Assembly: GCF_000189635.1 (NCBI RefSeq)
Contig: NW_002476204.1
Span: forward strand, 186,001 to 250,000
Reading direction: 5' to 3'
Length of the DNA stretch: 64,000 nt
Origin: Tetrahymena thermophila SB210
Taxonomy: Eukaryota > Ciliophora > Oligohymenophorea > Hymenostomatida > Tetrahymenidae
Part shown: in pieces, positions 29,010 through 52,347 of the stretch
Position numbering within the stretch: position 1 is the first letter of the stretch
Layout of the letters: each line of letters begins with the position of its first letter
Translations under genes and position numbers: made by a program
Notes under the pieces: model-generated
What the model saw: the letters and a program-made list of their open reading frames with translations, nothing else
The model's database searches: none
Told to the model about the DNA's origin: nothing

Positions 29010-30201
29010 TTATATTGAGTTGCTATAGAGCTATAAAAACTACTTTAGTCTGTAAAAACCTAAAATTAATTCCTAATATATTGAAAATGAATATGATTTA
29101 TTATGTTATATTTATTATTATATTTTGAGTATATTTTACAAAAATTGATGATTTGGATTTATCTTCATAAATAAAGTACCAAAGTAATCAAGTAATAATA
29201 ATGATTGGATGATTTTGAGATATTAAAAAATATTCAATATCTAAAATTTACATTTAATAAAATTTAACAAGCATCATTTTGATATCAAATTATTGATCAT
29301 TAGACCATGAAGGTAAATTAAAAACCAAATCATAGCCATATTTTTTATATTGAAACCAATTAATAATTTTTTCAATAAGAATCTAAAAATTTTTTACTAA
29401 ATATTAAAATCAATTAAATTCAAAACTATTTTATAAAAGAAAACAAACAAATAAATATTATTCTTATACATAATTAAGTTATAAAACTATTAATTTAATT
29501 ATTACAAATGATTATTTGAATGATAAAATAATTTTTTAGCAAAATATTATATATATGCTTTAATTATTCAGATAAAAATAATTTTTTTTTAAATTAAAAA
29601 ATAATAAATAGGTAAATAAAAAAATAAATAGATAATATTTTTCATAATTAATTTTAATTTATAAATTAATTTTTGAAAATAATTTAATATTTTAATTCCT
29701 TATTTAATAAAATACGTTATCAGAAAAATATTATATGGTCCATTCTAAATTAAATCCAAAATATTTACTTTTAAAGTTTGAAAGTTATATAATACTAAAT
29801 GAAATAAATAATTTTCTTAATTATTTCGAGTTTAAAGTTTTATTACCTAATTATTTTTATTTCTTTAATGATAATTAAGTCTTTTAGAATAACTTTAACC
29901 CCAAAAAATTTAGTTTATGATAGTTTCGTAAATTAAAAAATTTATTGCAAGATATAAAATTTAATAAAGATTTTTTTTGAGTTTGTAATATCCATTCAAA
30001 GTTTTATTACAAATTAATGCTTCTTATTTCAAAATATACATTAGCATTAGCAGATATTTTATAAATAATTATTGTTTTATCTATATGAATTTTATTTCTT
30101 GTAAATGAATATTTTTAGCTAAATTTTATAAAATACACTATAAATTAGAGAAAAAAATAATTAATTACTATCTAAACATTGATTTAGATATATATATATA
30201 T
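29010..30201. other. AT-rich spacer
   Basis: 1.2 kb with no supported gene or RNA; a (TA)n run is near 30190-30201. Confidence 0.6.
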
Positions 30202-33200
30202 TCATTTGTGTACTTTATTACTCCTTATTATATCGTAAAATTTATTTAATTCTTCTTCTTATGATTTTTTATGCTCTCTTGAGATCTATTATTATTTAAA
30301 TAATCCATTAAAATTATTCATTTTATTTTTAATTTATTACCAAGCTCTGTGTATTTATACAATTTAATACTTATTCTTCAAACTCTTCGATAGCAGTTCT
30401 CATCCAGTGCATATCATCAGAAGTAGGTTTTATTCCCTAAGTATTATTTTCGTATGTATAATCTGAAGTTAAAGATTTGCAAAACGTAAATTTTACTTCT
30501 TCTTCCAATTCGAATTAGATATCTGACCATATCTCTCCCATTTTAAAGTGAGGGTACATTTAAATTACTTCTATTTTTTACTTCTCATCAGGAAGAAGCT
30601 CATTTTTATCAAATCCTGTTCTATATAAAATAGCAAATATAATTGCTCTTAAGTCATATTATTCAACTTTTTCTTTTATTTTTCTTACTAAATAAGCTTC
30701 AGTACCAGCTTCTGACTCACTGTCAGCTGCAAGAAGGGCTTCTTTAAGTCTTGCAAACCCTTTTGCACTTTACCCTCTCTTACTAGTTTAATTATTTCCT
30801 TGAGTTCCATTTTCGAACTCATTTACTACTTTTTTCTCTTCCATTAATAGTTAAAATTCATCTTGTTTTTTTTTAGGAGCTGTCATTGGATTTAAAGGTC
30901 TGTTTTTGTTCACAATAATACCATCATCATATTTAACCTAGATTATTATAAAACATGTTTGTTTATTTAATAAAATTTATTTAATTACTTAAAATCTATT
31001 GTCTTCTTTATTGTATATTTTTATAAGCAATTAAGTTGCATTTATCATAGTTTTCCCTGAGTTCCAATCACAAAAGTAGGGAGTTGCTTTTGGATTTTCA
31101 ATTAAATAAGAAAGACAACTGAGGGCCATTTTTTTATGCATGTCATCACATACTTCTAAGAACTCAAGAAGTACAAATAAGCCTTCATTATCTAAGAAAA
31201 CACTTTCACTTTTTCTGTTTCCTAAAATTGAGTTCCATAAACAGTCAAGAATGGAAACTGCATATAAAGCATAACGAGCTGAAATACCCAGATTGGGATC
31301 TTTCAAGGCATTGACAATCATATCAACACCTCCCTTTTATCTGAATAGTTTTTTATTTTTGTTGCAATTTATGCATAAATTAGAAATAATAGAAAAACAA
31401 AGTTCTTTTATATCCAAAGGGTTATCATTTTCATTTTGTAAGAATTCAATCAAATTATCCATAACTCCTTCATCTGTTATTTTAAGCTTATAAGGCTCAT
31501 CAAATAAGGAAGCATTGTTGAATACTCTTAAGCATTTTTCTCTTTTTTCAGGATCATCTTGATTTGTTAAGAATTTTGTCAAGTAGAATAATCCGTTTTT
31601 TTCAGCAAAACTTGAATTCATTAAAAAATTTAAGTAAATTTCCACTATAAAAATTTTTAATTTTACTCTTCTTTCATATAAATGATAACACTTGATAATA
31701 TAGTTAAGCAATGAAGTTGAATTTCTTTTAGCTAAGGATTCGACCAGCGATTAACTGCATAACTGTCGTTTAAAGGATCAATGTAAAGTAATAATGAGTA
31801 AATAAAAGCACTCTAATATAATAATTATTAATTATTGATCATTTTATTTAAATTTTCTAAAAAAATAATCTATTTGGTTATATTTTTTAAAATAAAAAAA
31901 TTACATCTTTAATGGTTTCCAATATTGATTAATTTCCTGATTAAATAGCTGTTAACAATCCACTCCATATGAGCTTTTTGAATTCTAAATCTTCACTTGT
32001 TGTTGAATAGAAGGCACGATGATTATTGGTAAGGATCTTATCATTGTAAAACTCTATTTCGTCAACAGTTGCATAAACTAAAAGAGTATCTATAAATGTA
32101 GTTGGAGAGCTTACGTTAGGCATAGTGCTACGCTCATCAAAATATTAAAGAGCCTTTTCATCACTAAGTAAGTAGTTAATTAAGATTAAAAGCTCATTAC
32201 GAAGACACTTATCTTCTAATTTATAGCCGTTACGCATCAAATCTTCGAAAACACGTTTCAACTATGTAATTATATCCTCAGCTGCAAACAACTAAATAGA
32301 GCTGATTCCAACAGCCTCAATTGCATTCCATATAATTTCGAAGCAGCTTTTTACAATGTAAGAACGGAAATCATCACAGTCAAAAATGACATATATTATA
32401 TCTTTTAATATTCCGAAATTACAAAACTTTTAAGCTAAATCTTTAAACATAATACAATTAGAAATTAAATCTAATAAAGGTAAAAGATATTCGTAATTTT
32501 TCTAGTAATATTGCATAGTGAATATAATATCTTCAATAACATCTGATTTATTGATAGCTCTCAAATTTTTAGAGCCTTCATTCAGAAGCTTTTAGAGTGG
32601 ACTTGGCTCATATCCTTGCATCTTGGCCTTTTCAAAATTTTCTTTAAATTAAAATAAACATGAATTATTTTAATATTATATAATAAATATCTTTTTTTGT
32701 TGGTTATATTTATTTGATTTTTAATGATTTCAAAATGAAAATGCTTAAATTAGACTTTCTATTAATTGATTATGGGTTATTTGTATTGCTTCGATTAAAT
32801 CATAATAACTTCAGAAAATGCAACTTACTTTCAGCTTAGAGTATGGTATCTATTCCTTCATCTGAAAAGTTCCTTAAGAAAATAATAGCACTGTATCTCA
32901 AACTTTCAGTAACTTCTTCGTTCAGTATTATTTTCTCTTCAGCGTGAGTGTTATAAAGCAAAGGTCTATTAATTAATTACAATTTGAATTTATTATAATG
33001 AGCTTTTAGTTCTAAATAAAATATATATTTATTGCTTTTAAATCAACGAGGTTTAGTTGATAGGCTTTTTTCATACTAAAAGTATGACTCCCAATTTAAA
33101 TAAACAAACTGCATTCATTAACGTATTTTCAAATCTAATAATTTATCATAATTTAATTAAAATGCTTGCCTGAATGTATTTAAAAACTATGGTAAAATAG

Positions 33201-34374: not shown

Positions 34375-35604
34375 ATGTTTCAATATAATAGAACTATTCG
34401 TTCATTTTATAGCAATAAGCCTAGCTATATTTTAACGATATGGATGTGTATTATAGGATTTGCTAAAGTTCCTTTTTTAATTTATGTTACTAGCTAAAAT
34501 CTAATAAATAACTACAATGTCATTTTTTAATATAGTGATGACATGTTTATGGATTCTACAGTATAATTATTAATAGGAATTAGCGCAAGCATACTATTTT
34601 TAATGATATTTAGTTATAAAGTGAGCAGAAGATTAGTTATTTTTCTAGCAGAGGGATCTTTCATTGCATCATTAGTAATTTATATGCAAAAATATAATTA
34701 TTAGTGTTACGCATTAGGATTTACTTTACCTATTTCCACTATTATATACCCTTTGTACTTGGATGAAATATCATATGACCGCGAATACTTTAACTTAACA
34801 AATTATTTGTAACTCTCTTATGTTATTTCCTAATTTTATCTAAGCTCTTCGTTTGAAAATAAAACATTTATCATTATTGGAATCTGCCTAGCAGGATTCA
34901 ATATAGTTATTAGTCTTTCAAGCAGTATAAAAGAAACAACACTTTATTGGTATATGAATCATGAATCATAAAATGGAAAGGATATTATAGATTTGATGCA
35001 TACTCAAGGATAAAATTCTATTTAGCTTAAGTTTTAAGAATACAGAAATAGAAAGAATAATTATTTTACAAGTTAAATTCTATAAAGAATGTAGGTAAAG
35101 AAGGATTTAAAGGTTTTGCTATTATCATTTTTAATTCCTTAAACTTAAGTATTTAATTATTTTAAGATATTTAACCCAGATATTTATAATGAATCTTACT
35201 ACAAAATTAGCATTATTTTAGTAGCTTCAGTTGTTGCTCTCTTGCTTTTGTAATTCATCAGTCATCAATTTCTATAAAAAATTGGGTTTATGGTTTCTAT
35301 ATATCTAAATGTGATAGTAATTATTGAATACTAAATTAATGAAACTTAAGACGATACAACATTGCAATATGCTTTGTTTTTTATTTTGAACTTCTTTGTA
35401 GTATCTGTTTGGCTAATATAGAGTTTTTAGTAAATTCGTATCAGATTGATTTGGTTGCAGCAATTAGTATTTTGGTTTTCTATATATCTGAGTTGTTATT
35501 CTTAAGCAAATAATGGGTATATTTAAAGTAGCAGCTATCAACTCTAAATAGGATAATTAATTCTGTCATGCTTTATTGGATTTTTAATAGTATGTGATGA
35601 TTGA
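34375..35604 (+). CDS. Multi-pass membrane protein, transporter-like
   Basis: A single exon of 409 residues with about ten to twelve hydrophobic segments, for example YILTIWMCIIGFAKVPFLIY, LLIGISASILFLMIF, FIIIGICLAGFNIVI, ISIILVASVVALLLLQF, ALFFILNFFVVSVWL and LILSCFIGFLIV. A central cytosolic-type loop rich in Gln, Asn and Lys (~205-250) splits it into two halves, as in major-facilitator transporters. I could not find a diagnostic MFS signature, so the family is inference from topology only. The substrate is unknown. It starts at the first ATG after a long AT leader. Confidence 0.75.
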
Positions 35605-36164: not shown

Positions 36165-38111
36165 ATGAATTTATAATAAGAAAACTTCTTTTTAAAGAAA
36201 TTCCCTTAAGTAGGTGAAGGATCTAGCGAGTGGATTTAACTAGAATATGATCTCTAACTTGGATTAGGATCTATTTCTGCTGTTATTAAAGATATTAAAG
36301 CTATCAACAATCAATCTTTATAGTTTTAATTTTAGAAGCATAACTAAGTAAGTATATTTAATAATTAGTTCCCTTCTCTTTCAAAACTTCATAAATGGGT
36401 TTCCTAAAAAATATTTTATTAATTATTTTAAGAATAGACTTATCCTTGAATCATGGATAGATTACGAAGAATTGGAATAATCGCAAAAAATTGATGAAAT
36501 GTGCTACAAGGGTTTTGAATTTAAAGATCCCTAAAAAGGTCATGTTTTCCCAACAGGATATATTGAGTTGAGAGATAATAGCGAATCTAAAAAATAGCAT
36601 ACTGTGATTATGTTTAAAATTGCAGTTGGTAGATCCTAATGTATACCTTATCGCAAAGAGGAAATATAAAGTAGAGATTACTTAAAAGACAAAAACAGCA
36701 ATTTTGATAGTTTATATCTTTATGATGAAGCCAATGATTAATAAGGAAGTGTTTTCTTGCATAGATATGTCCTTTTTGATAAAGAATAAGTTCTGCCAAT
36801 GTATCAGATAAAATTTGAATTCGATGATAGCAAGGAAAAGGACTTGCAGGTAAAATTTAAGATGGATAATATAATATTAATTTTAGTTATTCAAGAAAAT
36901 TTATTTTAATACAAACTTTTTTGAAATAAAAGCCACTAACTTGCGACAACTAATGCTCAAACAAAGCTAAATTCTACTGTAAAAATGACGATGCTTACTT
37001 TTGTCATGACTGCAATTTTGATATTCACAATAATAATTAGCAAACATTTAATTAAAAGCATCATACAATTGAGATATCAAAAAAAGAAAAAAGTTTTGGT
37101 AATTGTAAGGTTAGTGATCATCAAGGTACTAAATTAGAACTGTATTGTATGATTTGTCATGAGGCTTTATGTGTTTATTGTAAAATTCAAGGCTCTCATA
37201 GTCAAGGTGAACCTGCTGCACACTAGCTTTTAAGAATATCAGATGCTTATAAAAAGGCACTACACGAATCAAAAGTTTTAGATCCTTAATTAGAAAAGCG
37301 CAAAAACGAACTCACTGACCATTTAACTAATATAGATCAAAAAATAAAGTAAAATATTTTTATTTAAGTCAATATAAAGTGCAACAAATGATAAAAAGAT
37401 ATAAACCGTTGCATTATTATATTTACTTTTATTTAATTTAACTTTATATATTACTTCTTAGGGATGTAAGCTCTAAATCAAAAAATATAGAAGATAGAAT
37501 ATACAAACTTTTAGAAGATGGCCTAAAGTTATTGCAATAAAAGACAAAAGAAAAAATGTGTATTTTAATAGGTGACTAGCTTGAATTAAAAAGATAATAT
37601 GATCAAATTTAATGGATTGAATCATTTTTAAAATATTAATAAAATGTTCTTAACCCAGCTGAGTACCTAAAAGCATGGTCAAGACATAGTTAGCTGAGAA
37701 ATAAAATTATAAGTGCTGATAAATACTAAATAGAAGAGATAAGCTCTGATATTCATATGGATGCTTAACCTATTAAAATTACAAGTGAAAATAATGTACA
37801 AAGTAGCTAGAATAAATAAAATCAGCAAGATCCAAATGAAAATTAAAGTAATGTATTAAGGGGGTAAATAAAATATTTCATATCAAAATCTTATTTAAAA
37901 ACTCATTTCTTTAAAATTTAGTAACCCAAGTTCATAATTTAGAAGTTAGATCTTAGGTAATAATAAGAATTCTAGTGCAAAAGACAAGAATGTTTCAATG
38001 TCAAATTTCGTAGTTAATAACAATACATCTAGAAATTAGATTAAAGGTCAATCAACTTTACAAACTATTGGTATTATGAATAATGGTGCTACATCATCGG
38101 AAGGAGCTTGA
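36165..38111 (+). CDS. Degenerate PARP-like (ART) domain fused to two B-box zinc fingers
   Basis: Five exons (36165-36347, 36433-36849, 36933-37348, 37462-37863, 37922-38111) with GT..AG introns of 85, 83, 113 and 58 nt give 535 residues. Residues ~20-200 follow the C-terminal pattern of PARP12/13-type ADP-ribosyltransferases: YKGFEF, GYIELRD, VIMFKIAVG, FDSLYLYDEAN and LHRYVLFDKEQVLPMYQIKF. The catalytic His is replaced (LILESW where LL.HG is expected) and the NAD-site Tyr is displaced (GYIEL), so it is probably inactive. Two B-boxes follow (CDNQC...YFCHDC...HH, then C..H...YCMIC...CVYC...H..). After them come a coiled coil (~280-370) and a Ser/Asn/Gln tail. The layout resembles TRIM proteins without a RING. 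The role is unknown. Confidence 0.8.
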
Positions 38112-39693: not shown

Positions 39694-41637
39694 TCAATTA
39701 AAACCAGCAAATTATTCACCAGAACCTTACTTACTGTTCATTGGCGAAATTTATGAATCTTCTATGTTTGTGGCTGAGCGATATTTCAAGCAACGAACTT
39801 TTGCTAAAGCCTTTGAATCTTTTAATGAAAGAAGATAATGATTTAAAGCTTCTTCATGAGAGAGCTTATCCTTGATCTTTGAACTGTATATCCACTCTTG
39901 GGCTTTTTCTTTTAAGAAATAGCTAAAAAGTACATTAAATTCTTAATTCTATATCAATTCAACCATTAAAGTATTATTGTAATTCTTTTTTGAGATAAAT
40001 TTCTCAAAATTCTTCCTAATACTGTTCAGTTCTGACATTATTTAAGAGGATTCAGATATTGCTTCTTTCAGAACAACCAATACTTCAGGCTCATCTGAAG
40101 GATTATTGATGAATCCTCTGAAAGCCTTTATAAAGTTCTTAACTAAATTTTTTCTGTCGCGCTTGTAGTTAAGATTTGTTAGGCTTGGAGAAGATGCTAA
40201 TTTTATTGAATTTAAGTAGGAAGATTTACGAGGCTTAGCGCTATTGTTATTAGATGTGCTTTGCAAATTGGATGAAGATATATTGCATAAAGATTTATCA
40301 ATGTTATTAGAGGATTTCGCTATTGCTTTCTTCACAATATTTCTTTTACGGTTAATCAGCTAGTTGTAGATTTTATCTGTTTCAATCGAGAAGTTAGATG
40401 AATCTTCATTTTAACTACAACTGCTGTTTTAGAGCATTTCGTTGTTAGAATCATGACCATTGTTGAGTTGCATCATGATAGCTGTTTCTAAGCTCTATGA
40501 AGCATTACGGAGTGGGGAAGCTTAACCATTCAAAGGATTATTGTTTAATTAAATAATTTAATGTTTATTTGTGTCATCTTCTCCTATTGCTTTAATTGGA
40601 CTGCTATTTCCTGGAATTGTGATGAAATAATTATTTTTAACATTATTAAGAGGAACCTTAGCATCTTTATCGGGAATTGCTGAGCAAGAGATCTAGTCTT
40701 CAATCAGCATATCGCCGCTGTTCTTAGTGGAGGAACCGCAATTTGAGTTCATTAGACTTTCCTCAGCTTCAAAGCTCTACCTTGTTGTTTCATTCTAAGA
40801 GTCGTCTGTGAGTATTGAAGTTTTTTTTACTCTCTTCTTTTTGTCTTAATCTTCTATGATGTTATCGCATGAAAATGCAGGTACCATTTAATTTATTAAA
40901 CTTTTATTAGCTTTTGAAATAGAGTAGTTGCTTTCTGAGTTATTAGTTGTGCTTCTTGTTGAGAAAGCAGAAACTTCTGAATTGAATTTTTTGGGAGATT
41001 TTGTTTTATTGTTGGCATTATCTATCCTGCTTTCTGGTTTATTTTCATTTACGTTTATAGGTATTTTTTTTATGAAGGAATAAAGAAGCTAATCACTTGA
41101 TGTTATTTGTTATTGTGGGGAGCTTTCTTCTTCTACATTGTGGGCTTCTTCCTCTTAGTAGTCATCATCTGCCTCAGGATCATATTAATTATTTTCATCA
41201 ATTATTTCATCATCTTCCGCATCTTCCTCTTCAATTTCTTCTTCTCCGCTACCAAACTCTGTACTCTTAGGACTTTCTGCCAAGGAAGATTGCCTGTTAT
41301 TTGAAGATATTTTAGTTTACTTAGGATTGTTTAATTATTATTATGAAGTAGAAGAGGTAGCAGTTTGTGTTTAAGTAGCTGCTATGGGATTCTAAGGTTT
41401 AAATACTGAAACTGTTTGAACAAGCCATCCATTTAGAACGACATTATGGTATATTTCCATTTTATCTTAATTAATGCAATTGATTGAAGATGATATTTCT
41501 AAATTTGTAGTTGCATTGTTCAAAGAGATTCCTTTAGTAGGGGTAGCAAGTTTTTGTTTTGTGGTAGTAGTTTCTACTAACAACCATTGGTTGTTAAAGC
41601 TGACGATTGATGATTTAAAACTGTCTACGGTGGTCAT
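39694..41637 (-). CDS. Acidic Ser/Asn-rich protein with helical C-terminal domain, unknown
   Basis: A single exon of 647 residues. The N-terminus is MTTVDSFKSSIVSF, chosen as the first ATG after an in-frame TGA. Residues ~100-160 form a strongly acidic stretch (EEEIEEEDAEDDEIIDE). The middle is Ser/Thr/Asn-rich with several phosphorylation-like SP and KSPKK sites. The last ~150 residues look folded and helical (NLVKNFIKAFRGFINNP, EVLVVLKEAISESSQIM, FSYFLKEKAQEWIYSSKI, SHEEALNHYLLSLKDSKALA). Acidic plus Ser-rich composition would suit a nuclear or regulatory protein, but no domain is recognised. Confidence 0.75.
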
Positions 41638-48616: not shown

Positions 48617-51600
48617 ATGCAAAAAGTGCTTAAACAGGGTCTTCTTGCTACATGTAAGAATACTCGCTCTATCTATAAATATGGCATGAAAAACACCATC
48701 AAATCCTTATGCTAAAAAAATATAAATTAAAAAACTCAGCTATAAAATTAGTTTATTTCATTCAAATATTCTACAGATCCTAACAATAGCGGTAATCAAA
48801 AGAGCTAAAATGATAATAATAATTTTACTAGAAATGACAAAGATTAGAGCAAGAATACACAATAGCAGTAAAATCCTCAAAGTGGAAGATTTTTTTATTC
48901 CCATACAAAGATGAGTAGTCATTATATCCTGAAAGAGGATGAAGTTTATGATTTATTAAATAAATTTGACATATAATATAAATAGTCTTTAAATAACTCG
49001 TAAATATAAATTGAATGGTGTCCTTTTTGCTTAAAACCTCACAATAATGATATTTCAAATGCATATACACTTGGAATCAAAAAGTAGTCTGGATAATTCA
49101 ATTGTTTTAGATGTGGTATTCATGGTTCTTGGTGGGATTTTAAGAATCTTCTTTATAAAAATATATCTATAAATGATTTTAGAAATTACAGTTAAAATTA
49201 TTAATAGTAATAAGAAGAGCGTATGGATGATTCAGAATATTATCTCTATCATAATTAATTGTTCGATAAGGAAGTGTATAAAGAAGAGCTAAATTATATA
49301 TGTGGAAAAGAAAACTCGACTTAAAGACATATTAATTTTGAAACATTAGTCAAATACAAAATAGGAATAGGCAAAGAGGATTTTATAAATAAAGAAGGAG
49401 ATGTTATTAAAGTACCTGTTGTATACTTTCCTATGTTTAAATTTGAAAAAGTTGAAGCTGAATCCAGTGACGAAGACAAGGCCAGAGATGTCTTTTAAGA
49501 TGAAACAAATGGTAACTCACAGAGAATAACTATTAGTACAAATTCATGTAAGTTAATTAAATGTAAAATTAGAGGAATAGGATCTGAAAATAAAAAATAC
49601 ATGAGAGTAAAACCATCTGGATCAAAGAGGTAAATAAACATCAAGCTGTTTTATATTGTTTTTATCGTTTTGTCTTTTATCAAAAATGTTAATTCGTTTG
49701 AATATCTAGAAATTTCTGAAGTTTTACAATTTTGAATTAATCAATAAGTAGAATAAATAAAAAACTATTTAAATTTCATTTATTAAAATATCAGTTATAA
49801 CCAAAAATATCTATTAATCGATATTGGTTTCTATTACACTTTAGAGCTTTTATGCTTCTCTATTTTCTATTTAAGTTAATTTACTCTTTAGATACATCAG
49901 TTTTATTATTTTAATATTAAATTTTAAATTTTAATTATTTTAGCGGTATATTTGGTTTGAATACAGTACCATAAAATGCTAAAGAATTAGTTATTACTGA
50001 AGGAGAATATGATGCTATGGCGGTTAATTAGGCAACTGGCTTACCTGCTGTTTCTTTGCCTAATGGTGCCTCGAATCTCCCTCTTGAAGTTATTGAATGT
50101 TTAGAAAAAATTGAAAAAATTTATTTGTGGTTGGATAATGATGAAGTAGGTAGAAACAATAGATAAAAATTAGCAGAAAAGTTAGGAGTTCACAGGACCT
50201 ATATTGTGAATACATTAGGAGAAAAAGATGCAAATGATATTTTACGTTAAGATCCTTCTAGAATTATTAAATATATTTAAGAATCAGCCACTATTCCAGA
50301 TTAAAATATTCTTATGTTTAGTGACTTGAAGGATTTAGTTCTACATAGACTGCTTAAATTTGAGCATAGTTAAGGATATCGTTCAAGAAGATTTGAGTTC
50401 TTCAACGAAACAATTAAGGGATTAAGAAGAGGTGAAATGACTGTTTTGACTGGTCCTACTGGTTCTGGTAAAACAACCTTTTTATCTCAGCTTTCATTAG
50501 ATTTTTGTACTCAAGTAAGTTTTTAAATTAAATTTTTCTTGAACATTCTAAAAAATACTTCATTCATTCTAATAAAAGATTTATTTATTTATTTTAATTT
50601 TTTTGTAAATTTTCAATAAATTAATTATGTTTCTTTTATATTAAAAATTTAATTTAAAAAATAGTAAGTCCCAACACTCTGGGGTTCTTTTGAAATCAAA
50701 AATGAAGTATTAGCTACCAACATGATTATGCAAATGAGTGGGTAAGATTTATTCAAAAACCATAATAAATTTCCTTATTGGGCTTAGAGATTTGATATGA
50801 TACCTATGTACTTCATGAACTTTTATGGTTCTACAAATTTAGATTAAATTATCTCTACTATTGAGTATTCGATTTACAAATACGACATATAACATGTTGT
50901 TATTGATAATCTATAGTTCTTGTTGGGTACATAAGCTAAAGGTTTTTCTAAATTTGATTTGTAAGAAAGGGCAATTGAAGCATTTAGATAATTAGCCACT
51001 AAGAAAGACATACATTTAACCCTTGTTATCCATCCAAAAAAAGTAGATGAAAATGAAGATTTGAATATCTCTTCAGTCTTCGGTTCTGCAAAGGCAACTT
51101 AAGAAGCTGATAATGTTATTATAATGCAAAATAGAGATAAATATAGAGTTATTGATATCAAAAAAAATCGTTTTAATGGTGACATTGGCAAGAAGGCTAT
51201 TATTTTTGATAAATCTAATAAAAATTTCTACGAAATGAGTTTAGGAGAAGTATCAGAAATACTTTCTAGCAAAAAAACTATTTCTGATATAGTTAAATTC
51301 AAGAGAGAAAAAATTTTGGAAAAAATTGAGGAAGAGGACTAAGTTAATCCAGTGGTAGATATCAAAAGAAATAAAAGTGGAAATCCTAATAATAATAAAA
51401 ATAATGATGGCGATGATAATGGTGGAAGCAATACTCCTCCATCTTCAAGTAGTAATCCTCCTTCTTCAAACACTCCTCCATCTTCAGGCACTCCTCCACC
51501 TCCTTCCTCTTCAAGCGCTTCAGCAGCTTCAAGTAATCAAATTGAAGATGTCTAAAATGCTGATAAATAAAGTTTATTCTCTGCTTAAAAATAACAATCT

Positions 51601-52347
51601 TAATTGTGGGAATAAAATAATTAAAAATAAGATAAAAAAAGTGAAGATAAAAGTAAAATTTAAAAGAGTAAAAAATAAAATGAAAATATAGAAATTATTG
51701 ATAAAGAAGACACTATCTTAAATGTAATGGATACCCAAGCTTAATAAGAATCTATAGATTAATAAAAAGATGAAGTATAGTTAAACTTGGAAGAAAGTTT
51801 AGAATAAATAGAAATAATACATAAAAATAATGAAGCAGTTGATTAGATAGAATCTAATCTATCATTGAATTATAATTATGAAGATGAAATGTAAGAAGCT
51901 ATAAACGAAGAGTTAATTGAATAAGAAATATAAGGCTAGAAACAATAATAATAAATTAAATAAAAAAATAAAAATATTTACAAAAAAGAAGAATATGACA
52001 CTGACTCCCTTGAGCCAATGAATTTCGATCTTTATCAATAAGAAAAAGAGGTTAAAACAACAGTTAATTTTTTCAAGAACTATTCTCCAGTCCCTCCTGA
52101 AGAAAGAGAAGATTTAATAAATGGATCATTTAAAAAGAGCAACCCTTATAATAAATATACAAACGAAAATAAAGTATTCTAGTTCACAGAAGAATTTATG
52201 GAATAAATATTTTCTGAAAAATATGAAGCTAATTCTGATATTTCTAATAAGATTCTGTCAAAATAGCATAAAAGTGAAGATGATTTATCAAGCCAAATTA
52301 TAGAAAAAAAATTTTAAGAAAAAAGGAATAAATAAAACAAAATTTGA
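48617..52347 (+). CDS. TWNK: Mitochondrial Twinkle-type DNA primase-helicase with long C-terminal extension
   Basis: Three exons (48617-49629, 49944-50514, 50665-52347) with introns of 314 and 150 nt encode 1088 residues. This is a T7 gp4-like ring helicase of mitochondrial DNA replication. The N-terminus is a basic presequence with a likely cleavage region at FKYSTD (~57-62). A complete zinc ribbon follows (Cys135/138 in CPFC, Cys163/166 in CFRC). The TOPRIM primase core has EGEYDAMA (357-364) and WLDNDEVG. The DnaB/RecA helicase has GPTGSGKT (508-515, Walker A) and HVVIDNLQFLL (Walker B). Unlike animal Twinkle, zinc ribbon and TOPRIM acid residues are kept, so primase activity is likely. 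Beyond ~750 is a ~340-residue disordered Pro/Ser then Gln/Glu-rich tail. Confidence 0.93.

Follow-up and report, generated by a model that had tools for sequence, protein, structure and literature searches.

A five-exon gene with tandem B-boxes

Within a stretch of 64,000 nucleotides (nt) from Tetrahymena thermophila SB210 (contig NW_002476204.1, 186,001–250,000; hereafter the window, to which all coordinates refer), positions 36165–38111 of the forward strand contained a complete spliced gene, running from an ATG at 36165 to a TGA at 38109–38111, with five exons and a product of 535 amino acids (aa). The original prediction, made from the DNA sequence alone, had described it as a probably dead ADP-ribosyltransferase (ART)-like domain fused to tandem B-boxes, much like a TRIM protein in which a pseudo-ART had taken the place of the RING. 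Sequence comparison revised this fusion reading: the gene is most likely the ciliate orthologue of a core protein of the apicomplexan apical ring, represented in Toxoplasma by PCR4 and PCR5.

The window was rich in adenine and thymine (guanine-plus-cytosine (GC) content 0.17–0.31 in 2-kb steps) and followed the ciliate code, in which TAA and TAG are read as glutamine. A telomerase RNA-binding-domain segment encoded in the genome agreed with a solved telomerase reverse transcriptase chain of T. thermophila (2r4g) at 101/102 aligned residues, differing in the first residue only, so that the genome is almost certainly of this species. The spliced frame contained no TGA before the stop, compared to 6 and 31 in the other two frames, and its glutamine codons comprised 37 TAA/TAG and 16 CAA/CAG. 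All four introns had GT..AG borders, lengths of 58–113 nt and a GC content of 0.13–0.20, vs. 0.26–0.30 in the exons; we infer their splice sites from the frame and from homology. An alternative 21-nt intron at 36348–36368 was rejected, since its frame runs into a TGA at 36447–36449 before the remainder of the N-terminal domain.

A Pfam search of the 535-aa protein recovered the B-box family in two stretches (E = 2.6e-11) and, at E ≤ 10, neither a RING nor a GTPase-activating domain such as that at the C-terminus of PCR5. The sequence motifs quoted in the original prediction were all present in the translated gene. The order of parts it had given was also retained, with two Pfam-identified B-boxes following the N-terminal domain and preceding a coiled-coil-like segment, the helical nature of which (residues about 303–421) is predicted from sequence and homology (Table 1).

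Relationship to Toxoplasma PCR4 and PCR5

When the full protein was searched with phmmer against the PDB (177,635 distinct sequences), 11 sequences were recovered at E ≤ 0.1. Toxoplasma PCR4 (TGME49_201220; PDB 9ya0 chain AB) ranked first with E = 2.2e-45 and PCR5 (TGME49_242320; 9ya0 chain AA) second with E = 9.8e-24, followed by the B-boxes of plant CONSTANS proteins from E = 1.4e-4 and those of Midline-1 and TRIM63/54 from E = 2.5e-3. Residues 1–200 alone recovered PCR4 (E = 2.1e-7), while PCR5 was absent from those matches. In searches confined to the PDB set and the present genome, the ciliate protein and PCR4/PCR5 were best matches in both directions.

The similarity covered the N-terminal domain, the two B-boxes and the helical segment. 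In global alignments, the N-terminal domain scored z = 18.9 against PCR4 (pieces joined) and z = 10.6 against PCR5, and the helical segment alone (residues 301–421) scored z = 35 and z = 11, respectively, with 0/500 shuffles reaching the real score in each case. Thirteen Cys/His columns of the B-boxes and D219 were invariant among the three proteins, with C208 offset by one, corresponding to a difference of one residue in the spacing of the first B-box relative to PCR4. The helical segment ended in W.ESFL.Y...L.PA..L.AW.RH in both PCR4 and the ciliate protein. Identity to PCR4 was 32% over the aligned pieces and 35.5% over residues 166–421 (88/248), whereas identity to PCR5 was lower, at 24–25% (60/238 over residues 166–421). 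PCR4 differed in its longer N-terminal insertions (about 107–157 and 213–261 unaligned), and a polar tail beyond the match belongs to the ciliate protein. Over residues 166–421, the ciliate protein and PCR4 were about as similar as the two Toxoplasma proteins are to each other (81/236), and PCR5 was further off; PCR4 may thus be the conserved copy and PCR5 the derived one.

These results bear on two earlier proposals. An arrangement specific to ciliates was not borne out, as all three parts occur in equal order in PCR4 and, at lower identity, in PCR5. The idea of a TRIM protein that had exchanged its RING was not supported, PCR4 and PCR5 ranking ahead of all other PDB entries. TRIM proteins are laid out as one or more B-boxes followed by a helical coiled coil, and Midline-1 and TRIM63 share this likeness with the ciliate protein, but the latter has no RING and the TRIM matches were confined to the B-boxes.

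The genome searches covered 445 contigs (101,022,631 bases) and were run exon by exon, scoring the best candidates only. PCR4 264–525 recovered two exons of the gene and PCR5 88–440 one exon, with no other locus at E ≤ 10 in either search. Self searches with the protein (first 438 aa) or the DNA recovered the locus alone, i.e., no paralogue was found in the genome, and a tandem or dispersed family was rejected. Pattern searches of prokaryote and virus contigs yielded 78 and 113 matches, none of which was confirmed as a relative. Identity with Zfr1p (TTHERM_01285910), another Tetrahymena B-box protein, was also ruled out: Zfr1p is described as having 448 aa, a single N-terminal B-box within residues 1–40 and a hydrophobic C-terminus (PMC3519685).

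Table 1. Features of the gene, with positions in the window.
Feature	Position	Strand	Residues and remarks
ART-like domain (putative)	36222..36825, split by intron 36348-36432	+	Residues about 20-192; hhalign, shuffle tests, PCR4/PCR5 profile
B-box 1	36942..37070	+	Residues 204-246: C204, C208, C216, D219, C224, C227, H232, H243; all except C208 invariant with PCR4 and PCR5
B-box 2	37104..37229	+	Residues 258-299 (best Pfam stretch): C258, H263, C272, C275, C280, C283, H289; columns invariant with PCR4 and PCR5
Coiled-coil-like helical segment (predicted), W..ESF...L.PAE.L motif	37239..37708, split by intron 37349-37461	+	Residues about 303-421
Exon 1	36165..36347	+	Residues 1-61, N-terminal part of ART-like domain; residues 17-105 (exons 1-2) align with PCR4 20-106
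Intron 1 (85 nt)	36348..36432	+	
Exon 2	36433..36849	+	Residues 62-200, most of ART-like (pseudo-PARP) domain; single-sequence PCR5 alignment starts at residue 62
Intron 2 (83 nt)	36850..36932	+	
Exon 3	36933..37348	+	Residues 201-338 plus 2 nt; B-boxes 1 and 2, beginning of helical segment
Intron 3 (113 nt)	37349..37461	+	
Exon 4	37462..37863	+	
Intron 4 (58 nt)	37864..37921	+	
Exon 5	37922..38111	+	Polar low-complexity tail, stop TGA 38109-38111; beyond PCR4-matching part

The upstream neighbour (34375–35604, +) encodes a hydrophobic protein of 409 aa that apparently crosses the membrane several times and for which Pfam gave nothing at E ≤ 1e-4. Downstream lies a gene on the reverse strand (39694–41637) combining DUF4441 (E = 4.8e-26) with a long acidic region rich in Ser and Asn. 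Further away in the window, an ARM-type exon (30029–31621, −) matched the central-apparatus protein FAP69/CFAP69 (E = 1.9e-17), and a Toprim plus AAA_25 protein (49852–52347, +) was read as a Twinkle-like primase-helicase.

Resemblance of the N-terminal domain to ADP-ribosyltransferases

The ART-like character that the original prediction had given to the N-terminal domain was recovered above chance, both by hhalign and by shuffle tests against PARP12. Against a profile of four PARPs, hhalign scored the ciliate domain at 36.7 (probability 67.5%) over 112 columns (residues 81–192), whereas 300 shuffles reached at most 22.3 and 234/234 pieces of the other window frames at most 19.8. The register with PARP12 and PARP13 (ZAP) held from residue 81 onwards and was clearest at HTVIMFKIAVG and YVLFDKEQVLPMYQIKF; against PARP12/13 only, the score was 24.8 over 17 columns. 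A three-member profile of the ciliate protein, PCR4 and PCR5 reached 32.5, vs. a maximum of 22.4 in 200 column shuffles. In global alignments, the ciliate domain scored z = 7.4 against PARP12 (0/500 shuffles), z = 4.9 against PARP13 (1/500) and z = 3.4 against a PARP of the same genome (3/500). With its C-terminal strand removed, it retained z = 4.2 against PARP12 (1/500).

Searching the PDB with the three-member N-terminal profile returned four sequences at E ≤ 10, namely PCR4, PCR5 and two PARP13/ZAP ART domains, the last two insignificant (E = 0.18 and 2.9). For the PARP12/13-type assignment of residues 1–200, the outcome was mixed: they fell in the PCR4/PCR5 family, and the next matches, although insignificant, were ART domains. 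A long stretch of PARP13 was out of register in this match, and only the C-terminal strand was in register (YVLFDKEQVLPMYQIKF vs. FVIFQKDQVYPQYVIEY). One of the three alignment members, which was not the ciliate protein, touched the Pfam PARP family at E = 0.094. Because a longer piece of PCR5 had no match to that family when searched alone, this member was probably PCR4.

Several results argued against ART ancestry. The Pfam PARP model had no match to residues 1–200 at E ≤ 10, and without its C-terminal strand the ciliate domain scored only z = 1.06 against PARP13 (63/500). PCR4 gave z = 0.22, 1.15 and 4.27 against PARP12, PARP13 and the same-genome PARP, and PCR5 gave z = −0.90, 1.86 and −0.66, i.e., z > 2 in only one of six comparisons; after removal of the C-terminal strand, 0/4 tests with these two proteins exceeded z = 0.2. 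The layout differs from that of PARP12 and PARP13, as the ART-like domain of the ciliate protein is N-terminal and followed by B-boxes. Overall, residues 1–200 quite probably represent a degenerate ART domain, with moderate support from these comparisons.

Of the H-Y-E triad, the His and Glu were absent. No His occurred between residues 62 and 97 of the ciliate domain. Based on the strand pattern and the PCR4/5 alignment, the catalytic His position was placed at E67, where PCR4, PCR5 and PARP13 carry a Tyr. The automatic global alignment set LFHGT of PARP12 opposite LEQSQ, with the His at Q77, and hhalign against PARP12/13 only put the His downstream of LILESW; whichever register was used, the H strand carried no His. 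The Tyr of the triad fell on I105 (hhalign) or V99 (global alignment), with Y104 adjoining I105, so that its earlier description as displaced was fair. The catalytic Glu position was occupied by Arg172, which together with the missing His upheld the view of the domain as probably dead. An active PARP was ruled out by the loss of His and Glu and the lack of a Pfam PARP match. Elsewhere in the genome, two adjacent PARP genes (C420:260241–266500; E = 8.8e-69 and 1.8e-66) kept HG and NE[FY]IVY motifs, which we take to be those of active PARPs.

Putative scaffold role and its alternatives

According to two studies on Toxoplasma (PMC12819142, PMC12663574), the P2 preconoidal ring is made of repeats, each with a core of two PCR4/5 heterodimers, which contact the CLU-plus-TPR proteins CGP and PCR10, and upon loss of PCR4 or PCR5 the rings are absent and gliding is not started. 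In Plasmodium, orthologues are known for three of eight apical-ring components, i.e., PCR4, PCR5 and TGME49_206430 (PMC11005440). We consider it reasonably likely that the Tetrahymena gene is a PCR4/PCR5 orthologue. Its product would be structural rather than enzymatic, combining a degenerate ART domain with two zinc-binding B-boxes and a helical segment that dimerises. Because every scaffold part is kept, the helical segment best, while the catalytic residues are lost, we propose a non-enzymatic dimeric cortical scaffold, most likely inherited from the alveolate ancestor. A scaffold had been raised as a possible role in the original prediction, and we regard it as the likely one. The protein would dimerise through the helical segment, presumably as a homodimer, the latter only because the searches yielded no PCR5-like partner. 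The dimers might pack together at a cortical or apical site, building a scaffold that is ring-like or otherwise repetitive. The favoured site would be a cortical aperture or docking site, such as the exocytosis, oral or conjugation-junction region.

A number of observations weigh against this role. To our knowledge, no conoid has been described in ciliates, so the protein may act in an unrelated structure. Filamin repeats, as carried by the P2 subunits FLM1 and FLM2, had 0 matches in the genome at E ≤ 0.001. A PCR5-like second gene was not found either, though a diverged PCR5 could have been missed by an exon-by-exon search of the best candidates only.

The candidate partners add a further reservation. 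The genome contained six CLU-central (eIF3_p135) matches, comprising L013, presumed to be the canonical CLU gene from its top Pfam score, and five further loci, L014–L018 (C442, C214, C204, C99, C114). In PDB searches, pieces of two of the six CLU genes matched PCR10 weakly (L017, E = 0.0013; L015, E = 0.0015), L015 also matching CGP at E = 0.18. With a 71-aa piece of PCR10, four of the five other loci matched better (E = 1.5e-5 to 6.4e-4) than L013 (E = 0.012) and the fifth (C442) less well (E = 0.107), and a CGP piece recovered two loci (E = 0.014 and 0.33), neither of them L013. In pairwise shuffles, PCR10 favoured 4/5 loci over L013 and CGP 5/5, with the splice guessed for one locus. As all 12 comparisons, those with L013 included, beat 500/500 shuffles, the pattern amounts to CLU-family similarity with a trend, and PCR10/CGP-like ciliate partners are a weak lead rather than a demonstrated P2 core.

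A PCR4/5 orthologue could also have a different job in ciliates, e.g., as a B-box ubiquitin or trafficking adaptor, with the ring role a later development of Myzozoa only. The missing filamin match and PCR5-like gene would agree with this, as would the action of Zfr1p at the conjugation junction (PMC3519685). The strong conservation of the helical segment with W..ESF (the best conserved part of the PCR4/5-like protein) is instead what would be expected if an assembly role had been kept, and we regard a different job as rather unlikely, if plausible.

It is less probable still that the protein reads ADP-ribose, with an ART domain that has lost catalysis but still binds nicotinamide adenine dinucleotide (NAD) or ADP-ribose, and with the B-boxes and coiled coil oligomerising it in the fashion of TRIM proteins or PARP13. 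The ART resemblance to PARP12/13 is compatible with such a reader, and true PARPs are present in the genome (14 PF00644 matches, some of which are exons of one gene). However, the PCR4/PCR5 relatives are structural, and their ART signature is weaker still (z < 2 against PARP12 and PARP13), as expected of domains without a bound ligand. There is next to no chance that the protein is a generic TRIM-like one, similar to PCR4/5 in its zinc-finger cysteines only: B-boxes are common in the genome (at least 26 matches, two of them at this locus), but PCR4 was also matched by the N-terminal part alone and by the helical segment alone, and the best non-PCR match was weaker by 40 orders of magnitude.

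One may speculate, with considerable doubt, that the P2 core predates Myzozoa. The cortical ring of the alveolate ancestor would then have been a pseudo-PARP/B-box dimer with CLU-domain partners, still built in Tetrahymena. In apicomplexans, the dimer would later have been duplicated into PCR4 and PCR5 and supplemented with parts that carry filamin domains, SEC23/24 or an actin-nucleating function. The ring scaffold would go back to a PARP12/13-like enzyme that had lost its activity. As for earlier work, ciliate homologues have been reported for some of 54 conoid proteins (Koreny 2021), the available text of that study being without PCR4/5 names or gene numbers. The accessible portions of PMC12819142, PMC12663574 and PMC12918799 do not mention 'ciliate' or 'Tetrahymena', and those of the first two do not mention 'PARP' or 'B-box'. 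The portion of the open-licence literature available yielded no description of PCR4/5 in ciliates and none of an ART domain in these proteins, though prior publication is possible.

Our results suggest that part of the Toxoplasma apical invasion ring may predate the parasites and be open to study in a harmless, laboratory-grown ciliate. Tetrahymena is easy to tag and knock out, and a PCR4/5 orthologue in a free-living ciliate would give a handle on the site of the protein, on whether it forms rings and on which partners are shared. Should the solved PCR4 structure bear out the degenerate ART domain, this would explain the origin of the scaffold fold.
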